Shown here piece after piece: positions 32,933-59,100 of a DNA stretch of 64,000 nt (within the stretch, counting starts at the first letter, position 1; the number at the start of each line of letters is the position of its first letter). Source of the DNA: Halpernia humi (GTDB lineage Bacteria > Bacteroidota > Bacteroidia > Flavobacteriales > Weeksellaceae); contig NZ_FNUS01000001.1 of the NCBI RefSeq assembly GCF_900108025.1, positions 434,001 through 498,000 on the forward strand, given 5' to 3'. Made by a program: the position numbers and the translations under genes. A model generated the notes under the pieces. That model did not search any database, was not told the DNA's origin, and saw only the letters and a list, made by a program, of their open reading frames with translations.

Positions 32933-33027
32933 ATATTTAGATTTTCTTCATCTTTTTAATTAAAAAGAGATAAAATAAATCAATATTTTATCTCCAATTA
33001 AATTATATTAAATAAAATTTTTATGTC

Positions 33028-33567
33028 TTATGGCTTCCAAAACGTCCATTTAGCTCCGTTGAAAACTGCTAGCCTTTTAGCTCCTGTTTTATTGATATAA
33101 ACCATCATTCCTGGTGCAGGATCTGTGATATCATCGGTATTTTGTACCATCGGCAAAACCATAGCTTTATCTGTAGATTCTAATATTAAAACGCCATTTA
33201 CAGGTGATGTATCTGACCCAATAATTGCACCTTTTGTGGTTTGTTCTATAGCAGAAGCGGGTTGAGATGATAGATACGAACTAACGTTTGCACCATTGCC
33301 GCTACTCAAGTCTTGCCAAGAACCGTTGTAGTATTTTACTTTTGCATCTAGTGGATTGGTCGCGTCTAAAAGAATAGTGCCTTCTGCCAAACCAGAACCG
33401 GCAGGTAAAATTCTGTCGTAGGGAAGTATAATGCCTTTGTTTTGCTTGGAAAATTCTAATAAAACAGATGTTTTGTCGTTTGCTGTTCCTATGTCGTCAC
33501 CTACGATTACTTGAGAAAGGTAAAAAGATACTATGAACAAACAAATTGTTGAAGATATTTTTTTCAT
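33028..33567 (-). CDS. Secreted surface-type protein, end of adhesin-like pair
   Basis: A 179-residue exported protein (signal peptide MKKISSTICLFIVSFYLSQ) of unknown function. It has an N-terminal segment found in Bacteroidota surface proteins (ILLDATNPLDAKVKYYNGSWQDLS) and ends with APGMMVYINKTGAKRLAVFNGAKWTFWKP, whose pattern GMMVY...K....F.G.W matches the end of the neighbouring 1016-residue protein (GMMVYDTTDKCLKIYSDGTW). It starts 35 bases after that gene's stop codon and is probably co-expressed. Confidence 0.6.
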   Translation of the reverse strand: MKKISSTICLFIVSFYLSQVIVGDDIGTANDKTSVLLEFSKQNKGIILPYDRILPAGSGLAEGTILLDATNPLDAKVKYYNGSWQDLSSGNGANVSSYLSSQPASAIEQTTKGAIIGSDTSPVNGVLILESTDKAMVLPMVQNTDDITDPAPGMMVYINKTGAKRLAVFNGAKWTFWKP

Positions 33568-33602
33568 TTATTTTTATTTTTTGGATTTATAATAAAATAG
33601 TT

Positions 33603-36600
33603 TTATTGGCATGTAGCCTTACTGAAACATGCCCAAGTACCATCAGAATAAATTTTTAAGCATTTATCTGTTGTGTCATAAACCATCATTCCTTCTTGCG
33701 GAGTATTAATATTACCTAAATTTGCTTTTGCAATTCTTGTAATTACAAAACCTTGCTTATTAGATTCTAAGGCAATATGTCCTGATTTTCTTGACAAAGG
33801 CCAATTATCCTGATTATCAGTACCGGCTCTTTTTAATAAAGTAATTCCCATTTTGGTTTCGGTTCCTGTTCCATTATTTACTGGGTCTTTATAACATACG
33901 TACGAAAGTGGGTTTGCAGGAAAAGCGCAACTTGCCAAATCTCCCGCACCATTGGTAGGTGATAAGTTTCCAATTAAAGAAATGGAAAAATCGTTATTCA
34001 TTTTATATAAATTAGAACTGTTGGTGATTAATAATTCTCCTGCAGAATTAAATGCAATTCCACTAGGTCCATTTCCTATATTCTGCTGTGTAATTTGTTC
34101 TAATACCATAGGAACTGCTCCAAGATCTGTCTTCGGTAATGGGCCTTTTGCTCGGAAAAGAATTGTGGTAGGTGAAAAATTAGTGCCTGCCAAAATCCAT
34201 AAATCACCATTGCCGTCTATTGCAAGATCTCCACCACTGTAAGTATTTAGAATCGTAATTAGATCGTTTCCGTTTTGATCTACGAAATAATTTGTGATAC
34301 TTGTCCAAGTATTGTTACTTATGTTATAATATTTCAATTCGTTTGAAGAAGTGAGGGCATAGTACCCTAATCCATCGTTAGTTACGGTACCTCTATAAAT
34401 GTAACCAGATGTACTTGCTAAGGTCTGATAAATATTAGTATTAGGATCATAGCTTACAAAAGTATTTCCGCTTCCATTGTTTTGATTTAAAACATAATAA
34501 AACTTGCCTGTAGCAGGACTATAACCTAAAGCATTTGGGCCATTAGGAGCACCTGAAAGTGCAGTTGGATGGGGCGTTGTATTGATTACTGTTCCCAATG
34601 CACCTGAAGTATTTGAATTATTAAACGCTCTTATTTCTCCAGTAACCGAACTTAAACTATAAATTTTATCTGTACAATCGAACGGCGGAACCACGTTAAT
34701 TGTTACAGTATTACTTAAGGTTGTGCAACCACCCAAACTTGTAACAAGTGCTTTGTAATATCTCGTCGCTATCAATGTCCCCGGAGTATATGTAGAATTT
34801 GTTGCTCCGGAAATATTACTGAAAGTTATATTGTCTGTAGAAACTTGCCATTGAATCGTTCCAGTAGCTCCTGTTAGTGACAATGCTGCTGGTGTACTTC
34901 CGGAAGTTATGGTTTGGTTTGCACTTGCAGTTCCTGCAACTAATACTGGATTTGCCGTTTGTGAAGTTCCAATCGTCTGTCCTGAACCGGCAACAGTAGG
35001 CACGCCATAACTTGCAGAAGTCGATGATGTATTTACTGAATTTCCAAGATTTTGAGTGATAGGCTGGTTGTAACTTCCACTTGTAGCTCCAACATTACCG
35101 CCAGACATTGAAGAGTTTACCAAATCGGAAGAGGTGAAACTTGCGCCACCTTCTATAGCATCCGGACAACCATCGTTATCTGAATCTAAGTCTAAATAAT
35201 CTGGGATTCCATCGCCGTCTGTATCTCTATGATTGCAATATGTAATTGTATTTCGTAATATTTGAATAAGACCTCTTGTTCCTTGGCTCATTGCATTTGT
35301 ACCTCCAGGAGCATCAAATGCTGTGTAAATCCAGTTGTGCGTTGCTCCATAATTAGTAGTTAATGGTGCTATATTAGGATCTTGAGTACTTAAAGTGTTC
35401 TGATCTAAGGGTCTAGCGTAATACCCACTAAACCATTGAGTTGGTAAACTTGCATTATATTCCAAATTATGAGTTGACCACAATCTTAAATTAGTCTGAC
35501 TACTATAAGAAGACAAAGAGGTGCTCAAAACTGGCAAGTTACCAAAAGTGGTAGTAAAACTACCCAATTGATCGATTCTTGAAGTTTGAAGAAGATATCT
35601 AAATCTACCGTCGCTAAATGTATTTGAAGATCCGGAAACATCTTCGCTTGTATTGGTGTTATTTGGTGGAAGTCCTGCATATAAAGAGTTTGAGTCAGGC
35701 ACTATAGCAATTGATCCAAAAAAATCATAAGCAACTTGCCATACATGATTTACCCCTGTGGCACTATTATTTAAGTCAGAATAGGTAAAGGGAACATTAA
35801 AACTGTTGCCTAGTCCTGGTACAGCAGATCCTGAAGTTAATGTATATACTATATTAAAAGTACCACCATTAATCCCAAAACTAATATTTGCATTAGCAAC
35901 AGATGCTGCTATATTCATAGTATAGACACTTTGACTTTCGCAAAAACCTTCTACTGTATCTAAAATCCCATCATTATCATCATCTAAATCGCAGGCGTCT
36001 GCAATTCCGTCTCCATCTGAATCTGGATTGGCTGCTGAAGGGGCACAAGAATTTATTACTGAAGATGAACATAAACCTATTACCGAACCAGCTAGACCTC
36101 CGTTGCCACTGATAACTAACTGAGTATAATTACTTGGCGCTGTTATTTTAAATATTCCGCCACCGCCATTACTTGGTGACCCTGGCGCGTTTGCTCCTGA
36201 TAAAATTAGATTTCCGCTAATCGTTGAGAAACAGTTAGCTCCTGCAGAAATAGAAACCGATCCTCCATCTGAATTAAAAATAAAGTTTTCATTATTTGGA
36301 AGATTTCCTGCACCTGTTCCTACAATTACGAATACCAGATCATTTACTGGCCTATCAAAATTTAGTGTAATGCTCCATGGGCTTGCGACTAAAGGGGTTG
36401 CTGGGTTGCCACGTCCTACGTACAGAGAGTTGTTAGATGTAGTTACATTCCCACTACAAGTTGTAACACTATTCGTAAAATTGGTAACATCACCTGTATA
36501 TGAACTTGTGATTGTTACGCCATTCAAAATGGTGGTGCCAGATCTTGGTATTGCAGCTGTACCAGTTTCGCATGTAACTTGAGCATTGACGTTAAAGCTC

Positions 36601-36653
36601 AGAAATAGAATGAGCAAAAATAAGTTTTGCTGTAATTTTTTTTTAAAAATCAT
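33603..36653 (-). CDS. Large secreted multi-domain surface protein with calcium-binding TSP3 repeats
   Basis: A 1016-residue exported protein (signal peptide to about residue 24). An N-terminal beta region is followed by thrombospondin type-3-like Ca-binding repeats (DSDGDGIADACDLDDDNDGI near residue 212; DTDGDGIPDYLDLDSDNDG near 485). Next come an Ig-like module ending SLGGCTTLSNTVTINVV, a propeller-like region resembling cell-surface repeats (YSPATGKFYYVLNQ), and the C-terminal GMMVYDTTDKCLKIYSDGTW motif. No typical T9SS sorting domain is seen at the end. Role unknown; surface adhesion is an inference. Confidence 0.75.
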   Translation of the reverse strand: MIFKKKLQQNLFLLILFLSFNVNAQVTCETGTAAIPRSGTTILNGVTITSSYTGDVTNFTNSVTTCSGNVTTSNNSLYVGRGNPATPLVASPWSITLNFDRPVNDLVFVIVGTGAGNLPNNENFIFNSDGGSVSISAGANCFSTISGNLILSGANAPGSPSNGGGGIFKITAPSNYTQLVISGNGGLAGSVIGLCSSSVINSCAPSAANPDSDGDGIADACDLDDDNDGILDTVEGFCESQSVYTMNIAASVANANISFGINGGTFNIVYTLTSGSAVPGLGNSFNVPFTYSDLNNSATGVNHVWQVAYDFFGSIAIVPDSNSLYAGLPPNNTNTSEDVSGSSNTFSDGRFRYLLQTSRIDQLGSFTTTFGNLPVLSTSLSSYSSQTNLRLWSTHNLEYNASLPTQWFSGYYARPLDQNTLSTQDPNIAPLTTNYGATHNWIYTAFDAPGGTNAMSQGTRGLIQILRNTITYCNHRDTDGDGIPDYLDLDSDNDGCPDAIEGGASFTSSDLVNSSMSGGNVGATSGSYNQPITQNLGNSVNTSSTSASYGVPTVAGSGQTIGTSQTANPVLVAGTASANQTITSGSTPAALSLTGATGTIQWQVSTDNITFSNISGATNSTYTPGTLIATRYYKALVTSLGGCTTLSNTVTINVVPPFDCTDKIYSLSSVTGEIRAFNNSNTSGALGTVINTTPHPTALSGAPNGPNALGYSPATGKFYYVLNQNNGSGNTFVSYDPNTNIYQTLASTSGYIYRGTVTNDGLGYYALTSSNELKYYNISNNTWTSITNYFVDQNGNDLITILNTYSGGDLAIDGNGDLWILAGTNFSPTTILFRAKGPLPKTDLGAVPMVLEQITQQNIGNGPSGIAFNSAGELLITNSSNLYKMNNDFSISLIGNLSPTNGAGDLASCAFPANPLSYVCYKDPVNNGTGTETKMGITLLKRAGTDNQDNWPLSRKSGHIALESNKQGFVITRIAKANLGNINTPQEGMMVYDTTDKCLKIYSDGTWACFSKATCQ

Positions 36654-36661
36654 TTGTTTAA

Positions 36662-36752
36662 TTTTTTTTTAAGTGTTTGTGTTTTATAATTAACTGAGAT
36701 TTTTTTTATTTTTAAGACATAAAAATCATGTTCAATATTTCTAAATATTGAA
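36662..36752. repeat. Duplicated spacer, copy B
   Basis: The spacer upstream of the 1016-residue protein gene closely matches the one at 39163-39250: a T run, AAGTGTTTGTGTTTTAT, a TGAGATTTTTT stretch, AAGACATAAAAA, and the hairpin TTCAATATTT-CT-AAATATTGAA. The match continues into the 3' end of the RPPP gene. It shows that module duplication included the non-coding DNA. Confidence 0.85.
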
Positions 36753-36777
36753 AAAAATTAAAATGAAATGTGAAAAA

Positions 36778-37500
36778 TTATAGAATTAGAGGAGGAGGAG
36801 GTCTGGTAAAATAATTTTCATAAACTGTAATTGTATGAAAATAAACGCTATCTTGAACATTAGTCTTTAGAGTAGTATCAATAATATTTTGATACTTATA
36901 TTCAGTAGATACTCGAGTAAATTTCTTAACCTTTGAGAAAGTTTGGCTAAAAACTCCAATATTTTTTAAAGTATTACAGCCATTAAAACTAGATGATTCC
37001 GAATCGGATTTGTAAACAACTAAAAGATTGCGATCTGGTATTCCTCGTTTTATTTTATTTTTTAAATCCTGCAGGTCATCCTTTGTGCTTTTCTCTATAA
37101 TTGTTTTTCTTGCTAATGAGTTTCTTTTTGCTTCTGGATGTATTATAACAACCTTAGCAAATAATTCATTTTGCGGCGCATAGACTATAGAAATATCTTT
37201 AACATAAATAATCCCTTTTGAGTCAGATTTTTTCGAAGAAACATCCAAATTATTTGTTATAGAAGATTTTTCTTCTTCCTCTTTTTCCTTTATACCGTTA
37301 TAAACAGTAACTCCCGGTAAAACAAATATTCCTAATTTCGTGACGTTAGAAGAGTTATTATTCTTCTTATCAATAATAGAATCTTTCGCTAAATGTTGAC
37401 AAAATAAATTGGTAGAAAACAATATTGAAAAGCAGAAAATCATCTGCAAAGTACAGATGTAATCTTTTCTGATTACTTTGTTTTTTATTTCCTTAACCAT
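36778..37500 (-). CDS. Secreted protein ending in RPPPPLIL (paralogue B)
   Basis: A 240-residue protein of unknown function with an N-terminal membrane/signal segment (MIFCFSILFSTNLFCQ near residues 20-35), a charged Lys/Glu-rich middle and a C-terminal tail YFTRPPPPLIL. The paralogue at 39275-39958 ends YFIRPPPLIL and shares the pattern IYV....AK.V.I.P in the middle. The extreme end is conserved even at DNA level, with one extra proline codon here. It precedes the 1016-residue surface protein and follows a stand-alone LuxR-type HTH gene, mirroring the other copy. Confidence 0.6.
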   Translation of the reverse strand: MVKEIKNKVIRKDYICTLQMIFCFSILFSTNLFCQHLAKDSIIDKKNNNSSNVTKLGIFVLPGVTVYNGIKEKEEEEKSSITNNLDVSSKKSDSKGIIYVKDISIVYAPQNELFAKVVIIHPEAKRNSLARKTIIEKSTKDDLQDLKNKIKRGIPDRNLLVVYKSDSESSSFNGCNTLKNIGVFSQTFSKVKKFTRVSTEYKYQNIIDTTLKTNVQDSVYFHTITVYENYFTRPPPPLIL

Positions 37501-37638
37501 TTTGTGTTTGTGGGTGCAAAGGGAAAGAATATTAATAATTTAACAAAAAAAATAGATACTCTAAATCTACCCTTTAATTTAATATACTATCAACCAATAC
37601 GTTACAAAATTCAGGCTGTAAATTATTAATGATTAAAA

Positions 37639-37995
37639 TTATTGATAAAAGGTTTTTAGCCAAATGTATATATCTTCTTTTGACTTAATATTTAACTTTT
37701 TTCTAATATTATACTTCTTATTTTGTATTGTTTTTGGAGAAAGAAATAGAATTTCTGCAATCTCTTTTGTTTCAAAATTCAGATAAATAAATGCCAAAAT
37801 ATGTAATTCATTTTTTTGTAAGTCTGCATTAAGTTTTGTGAGATTTTTAAAAAAGTTGGGATAGAAATTTTGAAATTTATTATAAAAATTAGGATCTCTT
37901 GATTTTGCAGATGTATAAAGAATATCAATATCTTCCATTTTCATACTTTCCTCTATGAATTCTTTATCAATATGATCTAAAAATTTTTTTTTCAT
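37639..37995 (-). CDS. Stand-alone LuxR-type helix-turn-helix protein
   Basis: An approximately 118-residue protein. Residues 55-118 form a LuxR/GerE-type HTH: ELHILAFIYLNFETKEIAEI, LFLSPKTIQNKKYNIRKKL, IYIWLKTF. It matches the C-terminal quarter of the TPR-TM-HTH protein at 40241-41677, including the flanking AKSRD.NFYNKFQ..YPNF stretch, so it looks like a copy that lost the sensor half. The longer frame begins at 38025; the start at 37995 (MKKKFLDH) was preferred because of the motif GTGTTTGTG just upstream, shared with neighbours. Confidence 0.7.
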   Translation of the reverse strand: MKKKFLDHIDKEFIEESMKMEDIDILYTSAKSRDPNFYNKFQNFYPNFFKNLTKLNADLQKNELHILAFIYLNFETKEIAEILFLSPKTIQNKKYNIRKKLNIKSKEDIYIWLKTFYQ

Positions 37996-38023
37996 TTGTG
38001 TTTGTCTGTTTGTAATAATAATC

Positions 38024-38060
38024 AAACATCAAGAAGCATCTCTTGTGATTCTTGATGTTT
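38024..38060. terminator. Hairpin between the 358-residue protein gene and the HTH gene
   Basis: A perfect 12-bp stem (AAACATCAAGAA with TTCTTGATGTTT) and a 13-base loop. In the leftward direction no strong T run follows, so it may be a weak terminator or a stabilising hairpin. Confidence 0.6.
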
Positions 38061-38081
38061 ATAGATTATTAAGTTTTCATT

Positions 38082-39158
38082 TTATTGAACAGTTTGCGCA
38101 GTTATTGTTAAGAAATCTAAAGGTGTTTCACCAAATCGTACAGTGAAAGGGGCTATTATAGAACTATAAACCCCACCTGTTAATTTTATAGTGTAATTTC
38201 CTGGAATTAGCTTAAGTGTTTGCGAACCATTAAAGTAATATTGACCGGCCACACTACTATCTACTGAACTAAAAGCTAATGGAATTCCTGTGGCTGCAAA
38301 AAAAGTATTGATAGGAATTGTAGAACCAGAAGGAACGGCAGTAAATTGTAACTCAGAATCAATTCTTCTTGTTTTGCCATCGTTAAGATTAGCCATATCT
38401 CGAATAGTGTATGATAACTGATAATCAAAAGTTACCAAAGAAGGATAATCTACAGTAAAAGTCACTTCTTTTATAGTATTTCTTACAGCAACACCAGAAG
38501 AAGTGATTTCTACAAAATTAGGTGAAATATCTGCAAAATCTCCCCCAAATATTACTGCATTTTGTTTCGGTATAGTTTTCAAAACACCATTAGAATCTGC
38601 AACTACAATATTGTCAGTTGTTGCTGTTCCTATATTTGTATTTATGGTTCTTACCCGCACGTTTCCTGTGCTAACATCTAACTTTTCAGTAGGATTATTG
38701 GTTCCTATACCCACGTTTCCTGCACCAGAAAAAGAAGTATTAAATCCAGCGGTTGTAATTTCTGTATTTTTAAGTAATGTACCTCCTAATTGAATATTAT
38801 TTCCGGTTTTAGTAAGCCCATTATCACCGGTTACGGCTGCAGGTATCATTTTTACCCAAACCGCTCCATCAAAATAATAATATCCCGCAGAAGTCACATT
38901 TGTAGTTTTTGTAGTTGGTGAAGTTACGGGCGCAGTTGCATATACAATAGCACCCGTTTGCGCAGATGTATAAAGCGCATCTTTGTTTGCCAAATCATTT
39001 CCTGAAATTCTTGGCGCTATAAATCCATCAATTTTGGTTGCGTCTAAAGGAGTAGCAACAACATCTAAAGTTGCTTTTGGAGTTTCAGTATTGATTCCTA
39101 CTTGGCCAAAAGCAGTTGTAGAAATTAAGATTAATAGTAGTAATGTATTTTTTTTCAT
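38082..39158 (-). CDS. Secreted tail-fibre/adhesin-like protein with VGINT repeats
   Basis: A 358-residue exported protein (signal peptide MKKNTLLLLILISTTAFG). It begins with the Bacteroidota surface-protein signature VGINTETPKATLDV, and a second copy (NVGIGTNNPTEKLDV) lies near residue 147. Between them is FDGAVWVKMIP, again the FxGxW theme. The C-terminal half is a beta-rich domain of unknown type. No sorting domain is visible. Gene order repeats that of the B module: RPPP gene, then a surface-type gene. Confidence 0.65.
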   Translation of the reverse strand: MKKNTLLLLILISTTAFGQVGINTETPKATLDVVATPLDATKIDGFIAPRISGNDLANKDALYTSAQTGAIVYATAPVTSPTTKTTNVTSAGYYYFDGAVWVKMIPAAVTGDNGLTKTGNNIQLGGTLLKNTEITTAGFNTSFSGAGNVGIGTNNPTEKLDVSTGNVRVRTINTNIGTATTDNIVVADSNGVLKTIPKQNAVIFGGDFADISPNFVEITSSGVAVRNTIKEVTFTVDYPSLVTFDYQLSYTIRDMANLNDGKTRRIDSELQFTAVPSGSTIPINTFFAATGIPLAFSSVDSSVAGQYYFNGSQTLKLIPGNYTIKLTGGVYSSIIAPFTVRFGETPLDFLTITAQTVQ

Positions 39159-39162
39159 TTTT

Positions 39163-39250
39163 TTTTTTAAGTGTTTGTGTTTTATCAGTAAATGAGATTT
39201 TTTAATTTTTAAGACATAAAAACCCTGTTCAATATTTTTAAATATTGAAA
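39163..39250. repeat. Duplicated spacer, copy A
   Basis: Counterpart of 36662-36752, with the same order of motifs and the hairpin TTCAATATTTTTAAATATTGAA minus its last bases at 39229-39250. It sits between the RPPP gene and the surface-protein gene. Confidence 0.85.
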
Positions 39251-39274
39251 AATTAAAAAAATTGAATAGGAATC

Positions 39275-39958
39275 TTAGAGAATTAGAGGAGGAGGTCTAA
39301 TAAAATAGTGCTTTAAAAACATCCAAGATTTTAAAGCATTTAATCTTTGATTATAGAGATTAGATAAAGAAAATTTAAAAATCCTTTTAGTCGTTAATCC
39401 ATTTACGGTAGAAATAGATTTTTTGGAACTGTAATTAGAACTAGATATTGATATAGCAATAATTTCTGATTGCTTACTGTTGTAAAAATTAGAAGCGCTT
39501 TTTGTAGAATTAAGAAATAAATCGGATTTTTTGGCTTTTTGTATCGTATTTTTAGTAGCAATTTTTTCATGTTTTTTCTTTTGCTTAGTAAAAACCTTTG
39601 CAGTTTTAACATGATTATTTAAAGGCTTTATTTTTACTATTTTAGCATCTAAAGAATTTTTAGCAACATATATAAAAGAGCCTTCTGCAAAATAAATTGT
39701 TGCTTGTTCAAATGATTTTTTGTGCTCATCATTCGTTTTATTCTCAGCTATTGGGTCTTTTTTTATAAAAGTTCCAAGTTCAATATAATTTTCACTTACA
39801 GATAAAGTTGAGTTGTTCTTATCATAAAATGTTGAATTGCTAGGCGTTGCCTGCTGCTGAGCAATTATTAAATCAAAACAAAATATCATAAAACAAACAA
39901 GCATCCTAGCAAAGCGGCTGCTTATTTTCCTACCTATCTTGTTCTTTTTAATCTTCAT
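39275..39958 (-). CDS. Secreted protein ending in RPPPLIL (paralogue A)
   Basis: A protein of about 227 residues with an N-terminal signal or anchor (FARMLVCFMIFCFDLIIAQ), a lysine/serine-rich middle and the tail HYFIRPPPLIL. The frame is open to 40012, but the start at 39958 puts the signal segment near the N terminus. It is the paralogue of the protein at 36778-37500. No known domain is recognised. It lies downstream of the TPR-HTH regulator gene with a 228-base gap holding the motif CGTTTGTGT. Confidence 0.55.
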   Translation of the reverse strand: MKIKKNKIGRKISSRFARMLVCFMIFCFDLIIAQQQATPSNSTFYDKNNSTLSVSENYIELGTFIKKDPIAENKTNDEHKKSFEQATIYFAEGSFIYVAKNSLDAKIVKIKPLNNHVKTAKVFTKQKKKHEKIATKNTIQKAKKSDLFLNSTKSASNFYNSKQSEIIAISISSSNYSSKKSISTVNGLTTKRIFKFSLSNLYNQRLNALKSWMFLKHYFIRPPPLIL

Positions 39959-40240
39959 TATTTTTGCATTTCTCCTAAAATGAACAAAAAGAGTTTTGAA
40001 ATCAGTACTCATTTATACTAATTTACAAGATGAGGGAACAGAACAGTAGATTTTCTTTTCGTTTGAAAAAACTATTCCTTATCACCTTGCAATTCATCCA
40101 TCGTTTGTGTTCGATGCTACAAAAAAAGTAAAATTAAAGTTTAAAAGTAAAAATGATAATACTCTAAATCTACCCTAATTTATAATAGTTTGATTTACAG
40201 AGTTATCTACAGCTGTTTTTAAAGGTTTTTAAAAGAAAAT

Positions 40241-41677
40241 TTAGTTGATGTATGTACGCAGCCAAATATAAAAATCTTCTTTTGAAGGAATTTTTAACTT
40301 TTTCCTGATACTATGCTTTTTATTTTGTACTGTTTTCGGAGAAAGAAATAAAATATCTGCAATTTCCTTTGTCTCAAAATTTAAATAGATGTATGCCAAA
40401 ATCAACAATTCTTTATTTTGTAAATTAGAGTTGATTGCCAATAAGTCATTGTTAAAATTAGGATATAATTTTTGAAATTTATTGTAGAAATTAGAATCTC
40501 TAGATTTCGCCGACTCATATAGGTCGTCTACTCCGTCTATCAGTTTCTTTTCAAGTCTTTTAGAATTAAATTCTTGCTCCTGTATAATTTTATCTTTCTG
40601 ATCTAAAACTTCATCTTTCTTTTTATTAAAAACAAAATAAAATAGTAAACCCATTATAAAAACAGAAATAATAGAATAAAGAATAATTTTATACTTATAT
40701 TTTTGTTCTTCTTTATTTAGATTATTTTCAAGGTTTTGTATGGTAAAATTCACACTTCTTGCCTGTGCATCTTTATAAGAATCATTAAAATTTTTATATG
40801 CATCGAGCATTTTTCTTTCTTTCTTAAAATCACCAATCTTATTGTATGTTTCTGCTAGGAGTTTGTAGACATTTAAAAGATGTTGTCTGTTTTTACCATT
40901 TGAGGCTAGTTCTAAAGATTTTTCTAAGTATTTTATTGCTTCTCTATTTTTATTCTCCTTTACATACAAATTAGCGTAACGATAATATAATACTGAAAAA
41001 TCATAGCGTTTAACATTTTTTATTTTTTTAAATGAAACCTCGGCCTTACCTAAATATATTTTAGCAGAATCTAAATTGCGACCTATGTAAAAACTTCCAA
41101 GATCAGAATATATACTTGGGCCTGGTAAATTAGTTAAAGCTTTTTGTAGATAAAATAAAGCAGAATCATTTTTATTATTATCTAGAGTTAATGCCCGAAC
41201 ACGATAGGCGTATTCTAAAAAAATTTTAGAAGTAGTTAAATTTTCTACTTTTTTACAATAATAGATCCCTTTAGAATTATATTTCAGACTAACATCATAT
41301 AGCCCCAAAGTAAAATAAACCTGTGAAAACTCTTGAAATATCTTAGCATATGTTTCGTTGTCTGCCGATATTTTATCTGCCAAAACTTTAGCTTTATTCA
41401 AATATTTAAGACTTACGTCTGGTTTAGACAGATTATAATACTGTATCCCTAAATTAATATTTGCCCAAATTTCTCCTTTTTTATAATTTTCTTTTTTAGC
41501 CTTTTCAAGCATTTCTAAGTTCCACTTAATAATGTCTTTCCGAGGAATGTTTTTAGACAACATTTCCTCAGATTTTTTCTTAATTAGTGAGTCAAATTCC
41601 AGATTTTTAGATTGAGATCGTAATCCCAAAATAAAAAATAAAGAAATAAGTAATATTATTTTGTTTTTTAGTTTCAT
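40241..41677 (-). CDS. Membrane-spanning TPR sensor with C-terminal LuxR-type HTH
   Basis: About 478 residues: signal/anchor (MKLKNKIILLISLFFILGLRS), a periplasmic region of TPR-like repeats (residues about 60-320; for example ANINLGIQYYNLSKPDVSLKYLNKA), one transmembrane helix (YKIILYSIISVFIMGLLFYFVF), a coiled coil (KKKDEVLDQKDKIIQEQEFN) and a LuxR/GerE HTH at the end. Such one-component sensors are common in Bacteroidota and likely regulate neighbouring genes. A longer start at 41734 was rejected because the promoter TATCTTTG lies at 41739-41732 (leftward), so transcription would begin inside that extension. Confidence 0.8.
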   Translation of the reverse strand: MKLKNKIILLISLFFILGLRSQSKNLEFDSLIKKKSEEMLSKNIPRKDIIKWNLEMLEKAKKENYKKGEIWANINLGIQYYNLSKPDVSLKYLNKAKVLADKISADNETYAKIFQEFSQVYFTLGLYDVSLKYNSKGIYYCKKVENLTTSKIFLEYAYRVRALTLDNNKNDSALFYLQKALTNLPGPSIYSDLGSFYIGRNLDSAKIYLGKAEVSFKKIKNVKRYDFSVLYYRYANLYVKENKNREAIKYLEKSLELASNGKNRQHLLNVYKLLAETYNKIGDFKKERKMLDAYKNFNDSYKDAQARSVNFTIQNLENNLNKEEQKYKYKIILYSIISVFIMGLLFYFVFNKKKDEVLDQKDKIIQEQEFNSKRLEKKLIDGVDDLYESAKSRDSNFYNKFQKLYPNFNNDLLAINSNLQNKELLILAYIYLNFETKEIADILFLSPKTVQNKKHSIRKKLKIPSKEDFYIWLRTYIN

Positions 41678-41731
41678 CATTAAAAGTCTTAATTTACCGT
41701 TTGGCAAAATCAAATGTGTGTGTTTGGACTG

Positions 41732-41739
41732 CAAAGATA
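41732..41739 (-). promoter_or_regulatory. Bacteroidota -7 element (TATCTTTG) for the TPR-HTH gene
   Basis: Read leftward it is TATCTTTG, matching TAnnTTTG, about 55 bases before the chosen start. It decides against the longer reading frame. Confidence 0.5.
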
Positions 41740-51636: not shown

Positions 51637-52044
51637 CTAAGGTTTTGGGTTTGAATTATCTACGCCAGTGGGCTGAACATCATTAGAACCAGTGCCAGTA
51701 CCTGTTTTAACATCTGAACCAATACAACTACAATATACATTAATAGTCTCATTTCTATTTATTCCTGTTTGATAAGGATTAGGCGGCGGACAATTGCAAG
51801 GAACATCGTCCAAAGGCAAACCCAAATCACCACCATGTTGGGGAGGTGGTAAAATATCAATAGGATTTTTTACTACTGGATAATCTGTTTTAGTTTTATC
51901 ATCAACAGAAGAAACACCACCAGAACTTACGGGAGTTATTTTATTTGCGGATGAATTAGCACCGAAATATTTCCACAATGCAAGAAGACTTAAAACGATT
52001 GCAATTAAATCAATTGTTTTATTTGAATTTGATTTTTTATACAT
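51637..52044 (-). CDS. Single-TM phage protein with proline-rich region and CxC motifs
   Basis: A 135-residue protein with an N-terminal membrane helix (LIAIVLSLLALWKYF near residues 13-27), followed by a Gly/Pro/Asp-rich outer part containing ILPPPQHGG and two CxC motifs (PCNCPP and VYCSCIG). The layout suits a membrane-anchored virion protein of the internal membrane; function unknown. Confidence 0.5.
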   Translation of the reverse strand: MYKKSNSNKTIDLIAIVLSLLALWKYFGANSSANKITPVSSGGVSSVDDKTKTDYPVVKNPIDILPPPQHGGDLGLPLDDVPCNCPPPNPYQTGINRNETINVYCSCIGSDVKTGTGTGSNDVQPTGVDNSNPKP

Positions 52045-52056
52045 TTTATTTATTTT

Positions 52057-52152
52057 TTAAGGATTATTTGTTATTTCAACAGTTGTATATGATGTTAGAT
52101 AAAAACAAGCAACTACGATTACAAAGTATTTTAAATATTGGGTTTTAAACAT
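52057..52152 (-). CDS. 31-residue hydrophobic peptide
   Basis: A very short frame with a central hydrophobic stretch (YFVIVVACFYLTSY). It lies between two leftward genes of the element, with gaps of 12 and 20 bases, which fits the tight packing of small virus genomes. Support is only from spacing and hydrophobicity. Confidence 0.35.
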   Translation of the reverse strand: MFKTQYLKYFVIVVACFYLTSYTTVEITNNP

Positions 52153-52172
52153 TTTTTTTAATTTTGAAAGAA

Positions 52173-52640
52173 TTACAGATTAACAGTAATTTTAAAGTTA
52201 TTATTTGTTAATGGTATGAACTCGCTTAACTGAATTTGATTTGAATCTATTAACGACTGAACAGTATTTTTAAACTTAACAACATCTTTATTTTGAGGGG
52301 TTAAATCAACGGCTAGACATTGATTGTAATCATTCAAATTTTCATTAGTAGGCTTTTCATATCCACGACTAATTAAAACAGGCGACCCAAAAGCAATTCT
52401 TATTTTATCCATAATTCGAGAGAGACCGTACCAATTTTTTAGATATGCTGCAGCAATATCGAAATTTTTAAAATACTCCTGTTTGGTAAAATATTTAGGC
52501 TGATAATCTGTAAAATCAGCAGAACCAATGCCTAAACTTAAAACAGATTTTTTATTAAAACTTTGAAAAATGAAATAACCTATAACGCCTAAAAAAGACT
52601 GTAAGAAAATGCTTTTATAATTTACTTTATTGTTTGGCAT
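52173..52640 (-). CDS. Membrane-anchored M15-peptidase-like protein, zinc ligands lost
   Basis: A 155-residue protein with one N-terminal membrane helix (about residues 11-27). Residues 50-120 follow the pattern of M15_3 D,D-carboxypeptidase-like domains: YFTKQEYF, then FGSPVLISRGYEKP, then YNQCLAVDLTPQN, which corresponds to the usual SQHxxGxAxDI. Asp112 is kept, but the metal-binding histidine and the glycine are replaced (N, C). A structural or cell-wall-binding role is therefore more likely than catalysis. M15-like genes are known from other small Bacteroidota phages. Confidence 0.5.
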   Translation of the reverse strand: MPNNKVNYKSIFLQSFLGVIGYFIFQSFNKKSVLSLGIGSADFTDYQPKYFTKQEYFKNFDIAAAYLKNWYGLSRIMDKIRIAFGSPVLISRGYEKPTNENLNDYNQCLAVDLTPQNKDVVKFKNTVQSLIDSNQIQLSEFIPLTNNNFKITVNL

Positions 52641-52657
52641 AATTTTTTATATTTTTG
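52630..52657 (+). promoter_or_regulatory. Bacteroidota promoter for the rightward cargo gene
   Basis: TTG at 52630-52632 and TATTTTTG at 52650-52657, separated by 17 bases, 26 bases before the ATG at 52684. It overlaps the start of the leftward M15-like gene, so the two units are divergent. Confidence 0.6.
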
Positions 52658-52683
52658 TTTTTATTAACACTAAATTTTTACAA

Positions 52684-53085
52684 ATGAAAACTTTATTTTT
52701 TCTATTAATCCCTACTCTATTTTTTGCGCAATCTAAAAAAGAAATAAAAAAAATAGAACAGAAAATAAAAAACTCTTATTATTACTCATTTTTATCGGAC
52801 AACATTAACTTAAAAAAAACCGCTAAATTTTACGCATGTTTAGATAAATATTATAAAGACGTAAATATTTACGAAGACAAACCATTTTTAAACAAAAAAG
52901 AATTTTTAAAAAAATACCCAGAATATTTTTCAAAAGACGGAAAAGAAGAAAGAAATCTCAACCAATATCATTATGATAAATATTATGAATTTGCTTCAAT
53001 GATGCAACTAGCATACATGCACGAACAATTCGACGAAAACGGAAAAAGCATCACATTTCCAAAATGCATAAAAAGCGAATTTTAA
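52684..53085 (+). CDS. Rightward signal-peptide protein in the prophage (cargo/moron candidate)
   Basis: A 133-residue protein and the only gene of the element on the plus strand. It begins with a clean signal peptide (MKTLFFLLIPTLFFAQS) and has a lysine/tyrosine-rich body (KKIEQKIKNSYYYSF, LNKKEFLKKYPEYFSKDGK). No family is recognised. The start at 52684 is chosen over an earlier in-frame codon because the promoter overlaps that region and the signal peptide begins here. Its own promoter and opposite orientation suggest expression during lysogeny, for example a host-benefit or superinfection-exclusion protein (inference). Confidence 0.65.
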   Translation: MKTLFFLLIPTLFFAQSKKEIKKIEQKIKNSYYYSFLSDNINLKKTAKFYACLDKYYKDVNIYEDKPFLNKKEFLKKYPEYFSKDGKEERNLNQYHYDKYYEFASMMQLAYMHEQFDENGKSITFPKCIKSEF

Positions 53086-53163
53086 TAAAAATTTTTAACA
53101 TTAACTTAATTATTAAGAAGTTTACCAACAATAAAAAATAAAAAAAAAAGAGTTTACTAAATC

Positions 53164-53868
53164 CTATAAATAAGCAGGTATCTTAATTTTTCCCTGATTA
53201 TATAATTTAGCACTTGCTACTTGGTCGTAAAATCTACCATTCTTTGGAAATTGATTTGTAACAATAGACAAATTTTTATCTATTTCAAAGCCCATTAAAT
53301 AGTTGGCTAATCTAAATCTAGAAATAAATATACCGACAAAAAAACGACAATCTGAACCAGTTAAGAAATTTGCACCAATACCATTTCTAGTTAACAACCA
53401 ATTAGCAAAAGAGACATCAGTACTTAAATTTTTCTTTAAATTATCCTGACGGGTTTTAGTAAATCCATTAAAAAACAAATAGTAAATAACATCTAATTGC
53501 TTTTGAGACAAAGGAACTAAACAAGCCGAAGCAAACGCTTTAGTTCTATCAACATAAACCTTACTTACAATTATAGCCTGACTATTTAAATAATCTGTAG
53601 AGTAATATTTACCTTTAACAGGTTTAGAACCATCAGAAAAATAAGTTAAACCAGTTCCAACAGTAACAGGGTCGCCAACACGTTGATAAGCAACATTTGA
53701 AAAACCCTCAATCTTGCCCTTGACTTGTAGAATAGCATCGGAAGGCCTCCAATTATTAATAAAAAAACTATTATTATTATTATTATTATTCACAGTACTA
53801 TTTTTTAACAGATCATCAAACCATTTACCAAAAAAGCCACCAAAAAGTAGAAAAGGAAAAGGAAACAT
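53164..53868 (-). CDS. Phage lysozyme (GH24-like) with N-terminal membrane segment and poly-Asn linker
   Basis: A 234-residue peptidoglycan hydrolase. Residues 1-17 (MFPFPFLLFGGFFGKWF) are hydrophobic, followed by a run of seven asparagines (about 27-33) and a lysozyme domain beginning KIEGFSNVAYQRVGDPVTVGTG. Glu54 matches the catalytic glutamate and Thr69 the conserved threonine of T4-type lysozymes; the aspartate position (+9) is Arg63, although Asp66 is nearby. It probably opens the host wall at entry or lysis; the N-terminal segment could tether it to the virion membrane. Confidence 0.8.
   Translation of the reverse strand: MFPFPFLLFGGFFGKWFDDLLKNSTVNNNNNNNSFFINNWRPSDAILQVKGKIEGFSNVAYQRVGDPVTVGTGLTYFSDGSKPVKGKYYSTDYLNSQAIIVSKVYVDRTKAFASACLVPLSQKQLDVIYYLFFNGFTKTRQDNLKKNLSTDVSFANWLLTRNGIGANFLTGSDCRFFVGIFISRFRLANYLMGFEIDKNLSIVTNQFPKNGRFYDQVASAKLYNQGKIKIPAYL
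53770..53790. repeat. (ATT)7 trinucleotide run inside the lysozyme gene
   Basis: Seven exact ATT units, coding for the run of asparagines between the hydrophobic N terminus and the lysozyme domain. Slippage would change linker length without a frameshift. Confidence 0.95.
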
Positions 53869-53887
53869 TTATTTATTTTTTTTTTAA

Positions 53888-53923
53888 AAAAGGCGTTTAA
53901 TATCAAAGTATTAAACGCCTTTT
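53888..53923. terminator. Bidirectional-looking terminator inside the prophage
   Basis: A perfect 15-bp stem (AAAAGGCGTTTAATA with TATTAAACGCCTTTT) and a 6-base loop. It separates the structural genes on the right from the lysozyme and membrane-protein genes on the left. Confidence 0.88.
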
Positions 53924-53938
53924 AAATTAACACTAAAA

Positions 53939-54091
53939 CTATTTTTTTGTAGGTTTTTGAACGGGAGCGTTTTCTTTATGCCAAATGTTTAAAGAATCAA
54001 CTTTCTCAATAACTTGTATTACTAAATTCGCATAATAACGAATTTTCGGAGCGTTTTCAAAAATGAATGTCAAAACGTTTTTTAATTTCAT
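53939..54091 (-). CDS. 50-residue phage protein, unknown
   Basis: A short frame (MKLKNVLTFIFENAPKIRYY at the start) with an amphipathic N-terminal half and a lysine-rich end (QKPTKK). It lies 21 bases after the 146-residue gene and just upstream of the terminator. Its position in the compact gene string is the main support. Confidence 0.45.
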   Translation of the reverse strand: MKLKNVLTFIFENAPKIRYYANLVIQVIEKVDSLNIWHKENAPVQKPTKK

Positions 54092-54112
54092 ACCAATATA
54101 TTTTTTTTTTGA

Positions 54113-54553
54113 TTAATAAACTTTTCCAAAAAATCCAGTAACACGCTTTCCACTTCTCGTTACACCACTACCATTTGGGGAGATAACCAAGCCTAATTCT
54201 TTAATGAAAATTTTCTTTGTGTCTTTTGACATTAAACACCAGTAGGTTTGCGTAGTTCCCATATCCCTATTGACAACCTCAACAACATAACGCATACTAA
54301 TTTTACCGTCTTGGCTTGCATGTTCTACACCATCAACAGGAAAAGCATTAGCCGTCATTAAACCGTTTTTTGTCTTTCGCCAAGCATTTACAGAAGTCCC
54401 GCCCTCATTCTTTCCCTTTTTTATTCGGGAATAAACAGCACCACTTTTTTTCTCGTTTTGAACAAAATTATAAGAATTATTCTGTTCATAATTATTACCG
54501 CCAAAGCGTTGATTTCGGCTTCTATTACGATTTTGATAGTTTGAATTTCTCAT
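54113..54553 (-). CDS. Basic phage protein with Arg/Asn/Gln-rich N terminus
   Basis: A 146-residue protein. The first 45 residues are arginine/asparagine-rich and low-complexity (NRNRSRNQRFGGNNYEQNN), suggesting binding of the DNA genome. Residues 60-146 form a compact domain with WRKTKNGLMTANAFPVDG and TYWCLMSKDTKKIFIKELG. No family is recognised. A ssDNA-binding or genome-condensing role is an inference from composition. Confidence 0.55.
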   Translation of the reverse strand: MRNSNYQNRNRSRNQRFGGNNYEQNNSYNFVQNEKKSGAVYSRIKKGKNEGGTSVNAWRKTKNGLMTANAFPVDGVEHASQDGKISMRYVVEVVNRDMGTTQTYWCLMSKDTKKIFIKELGLVISPNGSGVTRSGKRVTGFFGKVY

Positions 54554-54559
54554 AATTTA

Positions 54560-54739
54560 TTATTTAAAAATTCTACTTCTATTTTTCTCGGGAATCCAAA
54601 AATACAAACCAAGAACACCAATAGCGATAAAAACTATATAGCCAAGATTTATAAGTGTCGCTCCTGTACTATCTTTTACAAGAGGAGTATTTAAAAATTC
54701 CTCTATTTTATTGACAGTTTGTGTTTGAGTTACTTCCAT
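54560..54739 (-). CDS. 59-residue single-TM phage protein
   Basis: A short frame with one membrane helix (LGYIVFIAIGVLGLYFWIP, about residues 32-50) and a basic end (EKNRSRIFK). The helix-then-basic-tail layout resembles small membrane proteins of internally enveloped phages. It starts 42 bases after the 292-residue gene and ends 6 bases before the next. Confidence 0.55.
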   Translation of the reverse strand: MEVTQTQTVNKIEEFLNTPLVKDSTGATLINLGYIVFIAIGVLGLYFWIPEKNRSRIFK

Positions 54740-54781
54740 TTTTTCATTATTTTTTTTTGATTGATTAATAAAATTTATTTT

Positions 54782-55660
54782 TTACTTTTTCTTTGATATA
54801 ATAAGATAAGCGACAATGGCTAAAATTATATATAAAAAAGTATTCGTTTGAGGTTGATTGGTTGCACTTGCAGACCAAATGATATTTCCATTTTCATCTA
54901 CTCCAATTTGAACAGCACCTGCAAAAGGTGGTACATTTCCAGTACTTGAACCAGTTCCAGAGCCCAAATTTTCGTTAGGGAATAAAGAATTTTTTGCCAA
55001 ATCTATATACGACTTCGGGTCAACACCATCAGTCAAAGCCTTTTGAGTTAAAGCAGGAACTACGGATGAAGTGAAAATTTCAGGGGTTATTTTGCTTAAA
55101 TCTAAAGTGGAATACATTCCACCTTGCTTTGCTTTGTAATCTGTGCCTTGATAAGAGCCCCCATCCCAATTGTGTTTTGTTACTTCGGTCGCATTAAACT
55201 TTGTTAAATCCAAACTATCTAAAACACTTTGAGCGGCATCAGCATATTTCTGACGTAAGGATTTTGAACATCCGCTTCTATACCTTGAAATTTCAATAGC
55301 ACTTTCACGCACTACGCCATCACAAAATGTGGCTAACTCGGCTAATTTATTATAATCTTGGGAATTTTGGGCAACGGTGGCTCTATTCTGCAAGTCTTTC
55401 AAACAATCATTCAAATTATTTTTATCAAAGGCTTGACTACCTAAACAAGAAAAATCAAAACCACTTTTTAAGAAACCATCAAGTCCCGGAACTAAATTTG
55501 CGAAAATTCCAATACCTTGACCAATTGGTCCGAGTAAACTTGTAACACTTGTAATTGAAGAACTGGAAGACCCGAGAAAATCAGATACATTGAATTTTGA
55601 AGTTGAAGCGTTACCGCTTAAATTTCCACTTAATTGTTTTGAATTTATAATTTCTGACAT
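54782..55660 (-). CDS. 292-residue tail-anchored phage membrane protein (structural candidate)
   Basis: The protein begins with a Ser/Gly/Asn-rich stretch and a hydrophobic segment (LLGPIGQGIGIFANLVPGL near residue 42). A helical middle has several cysteines, and a C-terminal membrane anchor (LYIILAIVAYLIIS, about residues 274-287) is followed by KKK. No enzyme motif is seen. It directly follows the beta-rich capsid candidate, 16 bases away. A minor capsid, spike-base or membrane-linking protein is suggested; this is an inference. Confidence 0.55.
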   Translation of the reverse strand: MSEIINSKQLSGNLSGNASTSKFNVSDFLGSSSSSITSVTSLLGPIGQGIGIFANLVPGLDGFLKSGFDFSCLGSQAFDKNNLNDCLKDLQNRATVAQNSQDYNKLAELATFCDGVVRESAIEISRYRSGCSKSLRQKYADAAQSVLDSLDLTKFNATEVTKHNWDGGSYQGTDYKAKQGGMYSTLDLSKITPEIFTSSVVPALTQKALTDGVDPKSYIDLAKNSLFPNENLGSGTGSSTGNVPPFAGAVQIGVDENGNIIWSASATNQPQTNTFLYIILAIVAYLIISKKK

Positions 55661-55676
55661 AATACAAATATTTTTA

Positions 55677-56351
55677 TTATGATAAAACTAAATAACAAAC
55701 ACAGTTACCTTTAAGCGTTACGATTTGATTAACAGATACAGAAATAGCCATATAATCTTCTCCATTTGGAATATTTGAGGAAATTAAATCCATTCCATAA
55801 AAGACTTTTTTATTTGTGGCTGGCTTACCTACTTCTCTTTGCATAACAATTGTTTCAAAACTTTCGGCATCGGTTGGGATTAAAAGAGTTGGATAAAATT
55901 CAGTATCTAAATCTATTTGCTCATCAACAACAACTTTTTTAACAACTAAAGGGGAATTTGTATCAACTAACAATTTGTTTAATTCATACTCAAAAGAAGT
56001 GGGAACAGTAGCAGAAATTACACCGTTAACATCGGTTTGTGGGGTGTAGTCAATTGTAACTAAAATCTTATCATCTTCACTTAATACCAAATTCTTACCT
56101 ATTGAAAAAGGTAAAACACTCGGGTAATTAGGGAAAAAACTTCTAAACAAATCTTTTAAATCTTCAAAAACACCGCTATATAAATCTTGATTTGGTGCAT
56201 TTCTAGAAATTTTTGTTAACCTAATTTTGACATTGTCAACATAAGGAGCAAATTCGGGATTAAATTTCAAATTTAAACTTTGGCAACTTTCGCTAACTTC
56301 AAATTGAATTTGATTGTTTGCCGTGTCTATTGTTTTTCTAATGAATGACAT
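55677..56351 (-). CDS. Beta-rich phage protein, major capsid candidate
   Basis: A 224-residue soluble-looking protein with no signal peptide or membrane helix and a strong alternating pattern of short beta strands (FEVSESCQSLNLKF; VKIRLTKISRN; DKILVTIDYTP; ISVSVNQIVTLKGNCVCYLVL). It is the first gene after the promoter at 56393-56400, as expected for a capsid gene made in large amounts. A jelly-roll capsid protein of a FLiP-like virus is proposed. Structure prediction is needed; the protein is short for a double jelly roll. Confidence 0.5.
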   Translation of the reverse strand: MSFIRKTIDTANNQIQFEVSESCQSLNLKFNPEFAPYVDNVKIRLTKISRNAPNQDLYSGVFEDLKDLFRSFFPNYPSVLPFSIGKNLVLSEDDKILVTIDYTPQTDVNGVISATVPTSFEYELNKLLVDTNSPLVVKKVVVDEQIDLDTEFYPTLLIPTDAESFETIVMQREVGKPATNKKVFYGMDLISSNIPNGEDYMAISVSVNQIVTLKGNCVCYLVLS

Positions 56352-56392
56352 ACTTTATATTTATTTGTTAATATTTATTTCACAAATGTAGT

Positions 56393-56400
56393 ATGCAAAC
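56393..56400 (-). promoter_or_regulatory. Bacteroidota -7 element (TACATTTG, leftward) for the structural genes
   Basis: Leftward reading gives TACATTTG, matching TAnnTTTG, 41 bases before the start of the capsid candidate at 56351. No matching TTG is seen at the ideal distance. Confidence 0.4.
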
Positions 56401-56423
56401 GCCATAGGGTGGCGGCAAATGGC
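56401..56423. other. GC-rich hairpin between the HTH gene and capsid candidate (replication-origin candidate)
   Basis: GCCAT at 56401-56405 and ATGGC at 56419-56423 form an inverted repeat around AGGGTGGCGGCAA, a GC-rich island in AT-rich viral DNA. Its place just beside the rep/HTH genes would suit a double-strand or complementary-strand origin. Inference only. Confidence 0.3.
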
Positions 56424-56450
56424 AGATATTTGTTTTTAAATGGTTTTTAC

Positions 56451-56612
56451 TCAATCTATTAAAAAATATGCATTATAATGCTTCAAAAGAACTCGTTTTA
56501 TTTTAAATTCTAATTTTATTTGCTTCTTAATCCTTTCAGCAGTTCTAATACTGCATTCACTTAATTGAGCAATTTCCTTCGTGGTTAATTTTTTTGTGAT
56601 AGATTTTGCCAT
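56451..56612 (-). CDS. Small helix-turn-helix protein (53 residues)
   Basis: The frame starts one base after the Rep stop codon, so it is likely co-translated. The protein is basic and fits an HTH: LTTKEIAQLSECSIRTAERI (residues 9-28) has the KEIAQ...S..T..RI spacing of a DNA-binding helix pair. A repressor or replication control role is an inference. Confidence 0.6.
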   Translation of the reverse strand: MAKSITKKLTTKEIAQLSECSIRTAERIKKQIKLEFKIKRVLLKHYNAYFLID

Positions 56613-56613
56613 T

Positions 56614-57825: not shown

Positions 57826-57855
57826 AAATTTGGAAAATTTTTTTTTTATTTTCGG

Positions 57856-58548: not shown

Positions 58549-58566
58549 AAATTTTAAATTATAGAA

Positions 58567-59100
58567 CTACAAAAAAAATTGCAATTGCCCACCATTACTC
58601 AAAACACCAAAAGAGCGATAAGTTCTTATAAAAGAAGCCTCAAACTCTATTAAAAAATCCCAAAGGGAAGATGCTAATTTGAAATACTTACTATCAACGA
58701 TAAAACAAACTCTTTTTAAGGCTTTTATATATTCGTTAAATTTCTCTATGAAATACCACGCATAATTAGGAGACTTGGAAGAACTAATTAAAGCAATTCG
58801 AGATAATTCCATTTGAGCCAAGATATTTTTATTAAATATCAACGTTTCAACTTCTATAAATTCTAGTTGTTTAATTTTAGTATAAATCAAATCGAGAAAA
58901 ATAAAAGAATTGTCTAAATATTTCTCAATCTGTAAAGCACAGGATTTTGCTTTTTTTCTACTGGAAAAATTAGTTTGATACCAAAGCGTTTTGCCATTAA
59001 CAGACTCAAGCAGAGGAACTCTTTCAACAAGAATAAAATAAGGCTCTTTAGACTTAATTTTATTATTTTCTCTTTCACACTCAATTAAAATTTTGTACAT
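58567..59100 (-). CDS. 177-residue phage protein, unknown
   Basis: The first gene of the leftward string, starting 137 bases inside the right end of the element. It is charged and helical, with no membrane segment and no motif recognised (FILVERVPLLESVNGKTLWY near the start). It is followed by the methyltransferase gene after 18 bases. A role in early functions (replication or host takeover) is suggested only by position. Confidence 0.5.
   Translation of the reverse strand: MYKILIECERENNKIKSKEPYFILVERVPLLESVNGKTLWYQTNFSSRKKAKSCALQIEKYLDNSFIFLDLIYTKIKQLEFIEVETLIFNKNILAQMELSRIALISSSKSPNYAWYFIEKFNEYIKALKRVCFIVDSKYFKLASSLWDFLIEFEASFIRTYRSFGVLSNGGQLQFFL

Follow-up and report, generated by a model that had tools for sequence, protein, structure and literature searches.

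Most arrest peptides described so far give feedback on the export machinery; more recently, others have been recognised as sensors of metals and in some other functions. In Escherichia coli, SecM regulates secA via mRNA structure. Upstream open reading frames (uORFs) of the RAPP/RGPP type have a small size, an export signal, a C-terminal motif and an upstream position as their hallmarks, and include a TonB-related class in Gram-negative bacteria (PMC12992588). In CruR of Bordetella pertussis, once arrest on a RAPP motif is relieved, Rho-dependent termination sets in ahead of a gene for a TonB transporter (PMC9426467). Here, we describe two adjacent gene modules in a 64,000-nucleotide (nt) stretch of the Halpernia humi genome (contig NZ_FNUS01000001.1, positions 434,001 to 498,000), which is referred to below as the window and numbered from its first letter. 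In each module, a secretory-type open reading frame (ORF) with the motif Arg-Pro-Pro-Pro (RPPP) near its end, called the leader in this text, precedes the gene of a secreted surface-type protein. Judged from sequence comparison, the RPPP-tail genes are quite probably uORFs for secretory arrest peptides, through which surface-protein genes are gated.

Two leader modules in the window

All genes of both modules are located on the minus strand. Leader A (39275..40012, 245 amino acids (aa), likely ATG at 39958) has the tail RPPPLIL, and its RPPP codons (39287..39298), kept in relatives that were found with a tail-free profile, are the proposed arrest site. The proposed target gene A (38082..39158) encodes a 358-aa secreted surface-type protein with the start VGINTETPKATLDV, for which no Pfam match above the cut-off was found. 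Leader B (36778..37500, 240 aa) has the tail RPPPPLIL, with the proposed arrest site at its RPPPP codons (36790..36804). It is followed by the proposed target gene B (33603..36653), encoding a large secreted surface protein of 1016 aa with a weak thrombospondin type 3 repeat under the Pfam cut-off, and by a 179-aa secreted partner protein (33028..33567) whose C-terminus reads WTFWKP. The layout around target gene B recurs in other genomes.

Conservation of the motif in the leader family

Motif conservation was tested with a profile (A3) of 40 leader bodies from which the motif and the three preceding residues had been removed, because an earlier set of 65 leaders (175–275 aa) had been chosen by motif, and its motif frequencies and invariant Arg and Pro are therefore not evidence. 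The mean column identity of the A3 bodies is 16%. The profile matches 106 of 320 genomes of the same bacterial family, in 10 of 33 genera (E ≤ 1e-8), and 60 of the matches listed were fetched, roughly by E-value, from outside its source regions. R[P/A/G]PP is present in 59 of these 60 relatives (55 RPPP, 2 RAPP, and 2 RGPP). Although 18 of them are at least 60% identical to earlier leaders and some are close kin among themselves, 29 are less than 40% identical to any of the 65, and all 29 carry R[PAG]PP. Four more family matches came from a phylum-wide search, three ending in RPPP and one in RSPP. Altogether 124 leaders, a set filtered for the motif, comprise 106 RPPP, 9 RAPP, 6 RPPT, and 3 RGPP. 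In 395 genomes of the order, the single match outside the family was a broken frame (E = 7e-4) in which no tail was found; in 395 genomes of the phylum, both matches outside the family are without a tail. The leader family is so far seen in this bacterial family only, and leaders more distant than the profiles reach may be missed.

The motif is conserved near the C-terminus while the leader body is not, as in RAPP-class arrest peptides. In the alignment underlying A3, a conserved IY[IV]xxGxxI stretch with a lysine-rich linker behind it stands out from otherwise unconserved bodies. The 65 motifs are encoded by 58 distinct codon strings, and therefore it is the amino acids, not the DNA, that are conserved. 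Between 1 and 22 variable residues follow the motif; such a variable distance to the stop codon fits arrest and is not what a free C-terminal tag would show. Among 88 non-redundant contexts, Arg is preceded by an acidic residue once and by a basic or aromatic residue in none, and Tyr occupies position −16 in 32; such biases hint at nascent-chain constraints. The N-terminus is hydrophobic throughout: on a crude hydropathy score (not SignalP), the best 12-residue mean within the first 70 residues is 1.8–3.3 in the 65 leaders, with the segment starting at residues 1–57, and 1.1–3.7 in the 60 test relatives, a few of which are weak. A localisation signal thus stands more than 30 residues before the motif, again as in RAPP-class arrest peptides.

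Alternatively, the tail could be a tag for sorting, anchoring or docking to a partner, with the leader being an ordinary exported subunit that acts together with the surface protein. Both proteins look secretory and their genes lie together, and the IY[IV]xxGxxI stretch with its lysine-rich linker may be a functional domain. Known C-terminal sorting tags, however, have a fixed place and more than four residues, whereas the position of this motif varies; a docking tag would not predict a second residue confined to P, A or G, as seen in 59 of the 60 test relatives, and body conservation is very low. We consider a tag unlikely. The earlier note on this DNA had named signalling or surface display as possible functions of the modules; with 1–22 residues between motif and stop, and substitutions that largely agree with arrest mutagenesis, an arrest motif is the better reading of the tail.

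Still more improbable is a simple polyproline pause, in which a brief slowing dependent on EF-P would couple translation of the leader and the surface gene without any sensing. A PPP pause is not known to need Arg, yet Arg is kept in 59 of the 60 test relatives, and the export signal would be left without a role. The predominance of RPPP (106 of 124 leaders) agrees with known pauses at three consecutive prolines (PMC4176338), but 18 of the 124 (RAPP, RGPP or RPPT) have no PPP within the motif.

Gene order downstream of the leaders

The nearest neighbour lies on the same strand for 117 of 121 leaders vs. 219 of 316 control ORFs, and a secreted-type gene (hydrophobic N-terminus, at least 150 aa) is found within 600 nt for 91 of 121 leaders vs. 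87 of 316 controls; these counts omit 3 of the 124 leaders and 43 controls, for which the stretch contained no neighbour. Upstream placement on the same strand is a further trait of RAPP-class arrest peptides, and the leader would regulate this neighbour. In the cases with a long downstream ORF, this ORF encodes a secreted surface-type protein and is not secA, secDF or yidC.

The same order was found with a profile (A1) of the ~180-aa partner protein, which matches 269 of the 320 family genomes. In 70 regions chosen from its match list, mostly by score, there are 81 partner ORFs, 66 of which are preceded by an ORF of 250 aa or more. A tailed ORF (100–300 aa, R[AGPSD]P[PGT]) stands directly before the surface protein in 23 of the 66; control tails, in which K, E or S replaced R or the motif was reversed, gave 0 of 66 in the same regions. 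Among the remaining 902 ORFs of these regions are 23 further tails. Of these, 22 belong to ORFs of 100–300 aa whose N-terminus is hydrophobic and which resemble the leader class, and the other belongs to an 87-aa ORF located 48 nt before the gene of a 3014-aa secreted protein. If a leader is more strictly required to have 150 aa or more and an R[PAG]P[PT] tail, 43 of the 70 regions contain one. A leader is also held by 24 of 76 A1-anchored regions from named genomes, which overlap partly with the earlier genome set and hence are not an independent sample; carriers include Chryseobacterium, Kaistella, Epilithonimonas, Halpernia, Amniculibacterium, Frigoriflavimonas, and Cruoricaptor.

A search with one tail protein returned weak matches in other genera, among them the tails RAPPAFI, RAPPILA, RPPPSVA, and RPPTLFQFLK, each in a protein encoded before an ORF with a signal-like start. 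In a survey of 20 regions around genes for tetratricopeptide-repeat helix-turn-helix (TPR-HTH) proteins and known tail matches, a leader with a tail was present in 8 (5 of them picked for a known tail). Most of the 8 have a leader, a large secreted protein and a ~180-aa protein ending W(T/S/N)(F/Y)WK(P), and regions L089 and L091 have this order plus one extra ORF. Such a leader is absent from the other 12 regions, where an RPPP end was seen in a single 105-aa ORF that lacks a hydrophobic N-terminus. At least one of these leader-free regions, L076, contains the partner protein, so surface genes can lack a leader. The tail DNA itself was of little use as a family search: PPPLIL-stop as an exact DNA pattern occurs in the home genome at the two places in the window only, and matched 6 of 148 family genomes, about equal to a backwards control.

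The home genome has at least five leaders, four of which are found by the profile, two of them being those in the window. A copy on contig C5 has the tail RPPPYFS and precedes a 943-aa protein. Behind the copy on contig C3, which has the tail RAPPQFS, come an ORF of 115 aa, then the gene of an 863-aa protein with the C-terminus CFNTPTCP and that of a partner protein (182 aa) ending WSFWKP, which is the layout of module B. Approximately 5 kb beyond this locus, a fifth ORF missed by the profile (L404:2740-3393, -; 217 aa) ends FSGRGPPYLLA and precedes a 144-aa ORF.

Regulators and upstream elements

Each window leader adjoins a regulator gene. In module A, the regulator (40241..41734, -, likely ATG at 41680; Pfam TPR_12 3e-14 and GerE 2e-10) has a signal-like N-terminus, TPRs, one transmembrane segment and a GerE-type HTH domain, the hydrophobic stretches being judged from sequence. 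In module B, an HTH-only GerE regulator is encoded at 37639..38025 (-, likely ATG at 37995). LuxR quorum-sensing receptors have an autoinducer-binding domain N-terminal to the HTH, in place of which the module A regulator has TPRs and a membrane segment.

The earlier note had grouped the tail proteins with such regulators. TPR-HTH relatives (including a few HTH-only proteins) are present in 28 of 43 leader regions vs. 12 of 27 leader-free regions (p = 0.14), and none was found in the other 15 leader regions or beside the contig C5 copy (regions of 8–20 kb, some cut by contig ends). The regulator is therefore a frequent but non-obligatory neighbour and not part of the defining unit, although TPR-HTH regulators may control transcription of some modules. 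According to the earlier note, a tail that is widespread away from this neighbourhood would speak against its reading; this is the case with respect to the regulator, but not with respect to the surface protein. The recurring pair of tail protein and surface protein, also pointed out in the earlier note, held across the family genomes. A TPR-HTH single-protein search of the named genomes found no relatives. HTH-only proteins of 90–152 aa adjoin leaders in regions L148, L150, L151, L157, L160, L161, L171, and L197; in L148, L150 and L151 the HTH-only gene lies between the leader and the surface gene.

These counts also bear on the idea that the tail is a ligand, in which the exported leader or a cleaved end peptide would act as a peptide signal that the neighbouring regulator senses with its periplasmic TPR domain. 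TPR domains can bind C-terminal peptides, leader and regulator adjoin in the window, and 28 of 43 leader regions contain a relative of the regulator. The 15 regions and the C5 copy without a regulator in the stretch, together with the non-significant association, argue against a ligand, as does a motif that is not anchored at the C-terminus, being followed by 1–22 variable residues. A ligand role is thus quite unlikely.

The 16-nt element GGGTAGATTTAGAGTA occurs exactly once before each window leader (40160..40175, - and 37557..37572, -), where it is a possible operator; with up to three mismatches there are 3 sites in the window, and 1 of 100 shuffles reaches as many. At both positions GGGTA-N6-GAGTA forms a direct repeat with 11-bp spacing. 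As a common operator, GGGTAGATTTAGAGTA was rejected: exact copies are confined to the two window modules, and GTAGATTTAGAG is found in 2 of 124 leader upstream regions. The looser G[AG]GTA-N6-G[AG]GTA is present in 5 of 124 leader upstream regions vs. 2 of 706 controls. The most enriched upstream dyads are common to 10–18 of the 124 regions and seem to reflect sets of close relatives.

Relationship between the two modules

The two modules had been taken for a duplicated system on account of their tails, similar regulators and matching spacers. The underlying pattern is real: both tails are present, the HTH domains of the two regulators share 69% identity over 97 aa, and the stretch from tail to next gene (a spacer of ~150 nt) is 81% (98 nt) and 88% (51 nt) identical, so that the matching parts of the modules exceed chance. 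Each spacer contains a 22-nt palindrome, which reads TTCAATATTT-AA-AAATATTGAA in spacer A (39228..39249, -) and TTCAATATTT-AG-AAATATTGAA in spacer B (36731..36752, -) on the minus strand. The leader bodies, by contrast, show a weak likeness of 28% over 142 aa (E = 7e-8), and no likeness was detectable between the surface proteins of the two modules (best E 1.7). Duplication is therefore limited to the HTH domain, spacer and tail, and a wholesale duplication of the module is rejected. The tail and spacer (36654-36845 and 39159-39340, -) are far more conserved between the modules than the flanking genes, and surface-protein genes could perhaps have been swapped there by recombination.

Fit to arrest motifs and proposed mechanism

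R-P-P-P fits the RAPP class of arrest motifs (ApdA, ApdP, and CruR), and the residues of the leader motif largely match arrest mutagenesis. The stalled ribosome has the third motif residue in its P site and the fourth in its A site; Arg is irreplaceable in ApdP and ApdA, with every Arg substitution in ApdP raising reporter activity (PMC12992588). At the second position of both peptides, Gly equals or beats Ala and Pro is tolerated, the reported values in Bacillus subtilis for ApdP being 2.4 units for A132P (equivalent to RPPP), 1.9 for wild type and 0.9 for A132G (PMC12992588). A Pro in the A site is needed for full arrest of ApdA and ApdP, every substitution having raised reporter activity, and Cys and Thr are next best in ApdP, with Thr third (PMC7897499).

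Several points weigh against arrest with control of the next gene. ApdA A121P (RPPP) is weaker than RAPP (12.9 vs. 3.0 units), ApdP A132P is weaker in E. coli (491 vs. 152), and ApcA tolerates no Ala substitution, only its wild-type sequence working (PMC12992588). Most tested RAPP-like sequences of E. coli and B. subtilis arrested inefficiently (PMC10987492). The 6 RPPT leaders among the 65 would be weak, because substitutions of the A-site Pro raise reporter activity, and EF-P may relieve proline runs. One of the 60 test relatives has KPPP (L258:4814-5413, -; genome 73% complete), and one further family match has RSPP. In 43 of the 66 surface/partner pairs there is no leader directly ahead, and surface genes hence do not generally need one; the next gene falls outside the secreted-gene definition in 30 of 121 leaders. 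A version based on an mRNA hairpin gained no clear support from two comparisons. When stalling was modelled by masking the ribosome footprint, start accessibility gained 0.036 vs. 0.008 in shuffles (p = 0.055, 65 pairs), and the spacers behind leaders have less structure than control gaps (z −1.51 vs. −2.26, p = 0.054; 180 of 257 control gaps used). The KPPP relative in L258 would be a naturally occurring variant in which arrest may have been lost.

In the window itself, modelled stalling hardly changed start accessibility (0.46 to 0.49 and 0.83 to 0.82), and a few single gains are large, such as 0.27 to 0.63 for the contig C5 copy. Leader spacers are more structured than their own shuffles (mean z −1.50), and less structured than gaps before secreted genes (p = 0.001). 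A SecM-like hairpin was dropped because control gaps are even more structured than leader spacers, and no special spacer structure was found. A Rho signal was too weak to use as support: the C-over-G skew is 0.141 in leader spacers vs. 0.085 in controls (p = 0.016), and terminator-like sites occur in 1 of 65 leader spacers vs. 15 of 257 controls (p = 0.21).

Under the arrest reading, the small protein with its export signal would be translated first. With Arg-Pro-Pro (or Arg-Ala-Pro, Arg-Gly-Pro) at the catalytic centre and Pro next, peptide-bond formation would stop. How long the stall persists would be set by a cue sensed via the N-terminal part that has emerged, the simplest cue being pulling by the export machinery, and the stalled or released state would then set the expression level of the surface-protein gene downstream, presumably on the same mRNA. 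A CruR-like route, in which the stalled ribosome would shield the mRNA from premature transcription termination, would fit better than SecM-like occlusion; retention of the mRNA at the membrane is likewise favoured over a hairpin.

We lean slightly towards a broader reading, in which multi-copy, fast-evolving, RPPP-based leaders gate surface proteins one by one across the family (Chryseobacterium, Kaistella, Epilithonimonas, Halpernia, and relatives). If so, stalling would select which adhesin is made and where, instead of providing export-machine feedback, and nascent-chain control would extend, in this family of Bacteroidota, to what is displayed on the surface and when. RPPP would then be a natural arrest motif, and the more than 100 natural variants with their fast-changing tunnel sequences would be a resource for the requirements of RAPP-type stalling.

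Other features of the window

A phage-like gene block is located at 51637-59100 (-), which we take to be possibly an integrated small single-stranded DNA phage of the FLiP type. It encodes an endolysin-like protein (53164-53868, -), a virion structural protein (54113-54553, -), a rolling-circle replication protein (56614-57825, -), and a methyltransferase-like protein (57856-58548, -); for a 224-aa protein (55677-56351), no match was found among phage records. An inverted repeat (33005-33030 / 36713-36738) is estimated to be a likely chance occurrence in this AT-rich DNA.

Comparison with known systems

SecM of E. coli is likewise a secretory leader, with an arrest motif ending RAGP (PMC12992588); special spacer structure, as in SecM, was not found behind the leaders described here. 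The uDF_NAP-stop proteins are also candidate arrest peptides found mainly in Bacteroidota, but as described they have a proline at the very C-terminal end, no RxPP, and a position upstream of secDF (PMC10987492). ApdA, ApdP and ApcA resemble the leaders in being small localised proteins with a RAPP-like motif near the C-terminus and a poorly conserved body, encoded upstream of their targets (PMC7897499, PMC10987492). They precede secDF or yidC, whereas the leaders precede surface-type proteins, and their arrest motifs are RAPP, RGPP or RAPG, whereas the putative arrest motif of the leaders is mostly RPPP (106 of 124).

The RAPP/RGPP uORFs, including those of Streptomyces lividans, are closer in that they too encode small secretory or membrane proteins upstream of non-Sec genes (PMC12992588). 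The sections of that survey considered here name no adhesin-type targets, and the family described here would mostly have been missed by it because, as described there, RAPP and RGPP were extracted (PMC12992588). No earlier description of putative RPPP arrest leaders was found in the open-access literature, where supplementary tables could hold the family, and none of three leaders scanned has an NCBIfam match. Two 118-aa ORFs in Chryseobacterium (L353:13937-14293, - and L371:13978-14334, -) end LRGPPAIS and precede proteins of ~810 aa that have a C-terminal Phe like that of outer-membrane barrels; these ORFs possibly belong to the known TonB class of RGPP uORFs.

CruR, a DUF2946 protein, shares with the leaders a uORF with a C-terminal RAPP that precedes an envelope-protein gene (PMC9426467). 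Neither window leader matches DUF2946 in Pfam (E ≤ 0.1). CruR senses copper via CXXC and precedes a TonB-dependent transporter (PMC9426467), whereas CXXC is present in only 6 of the 124 leaders.

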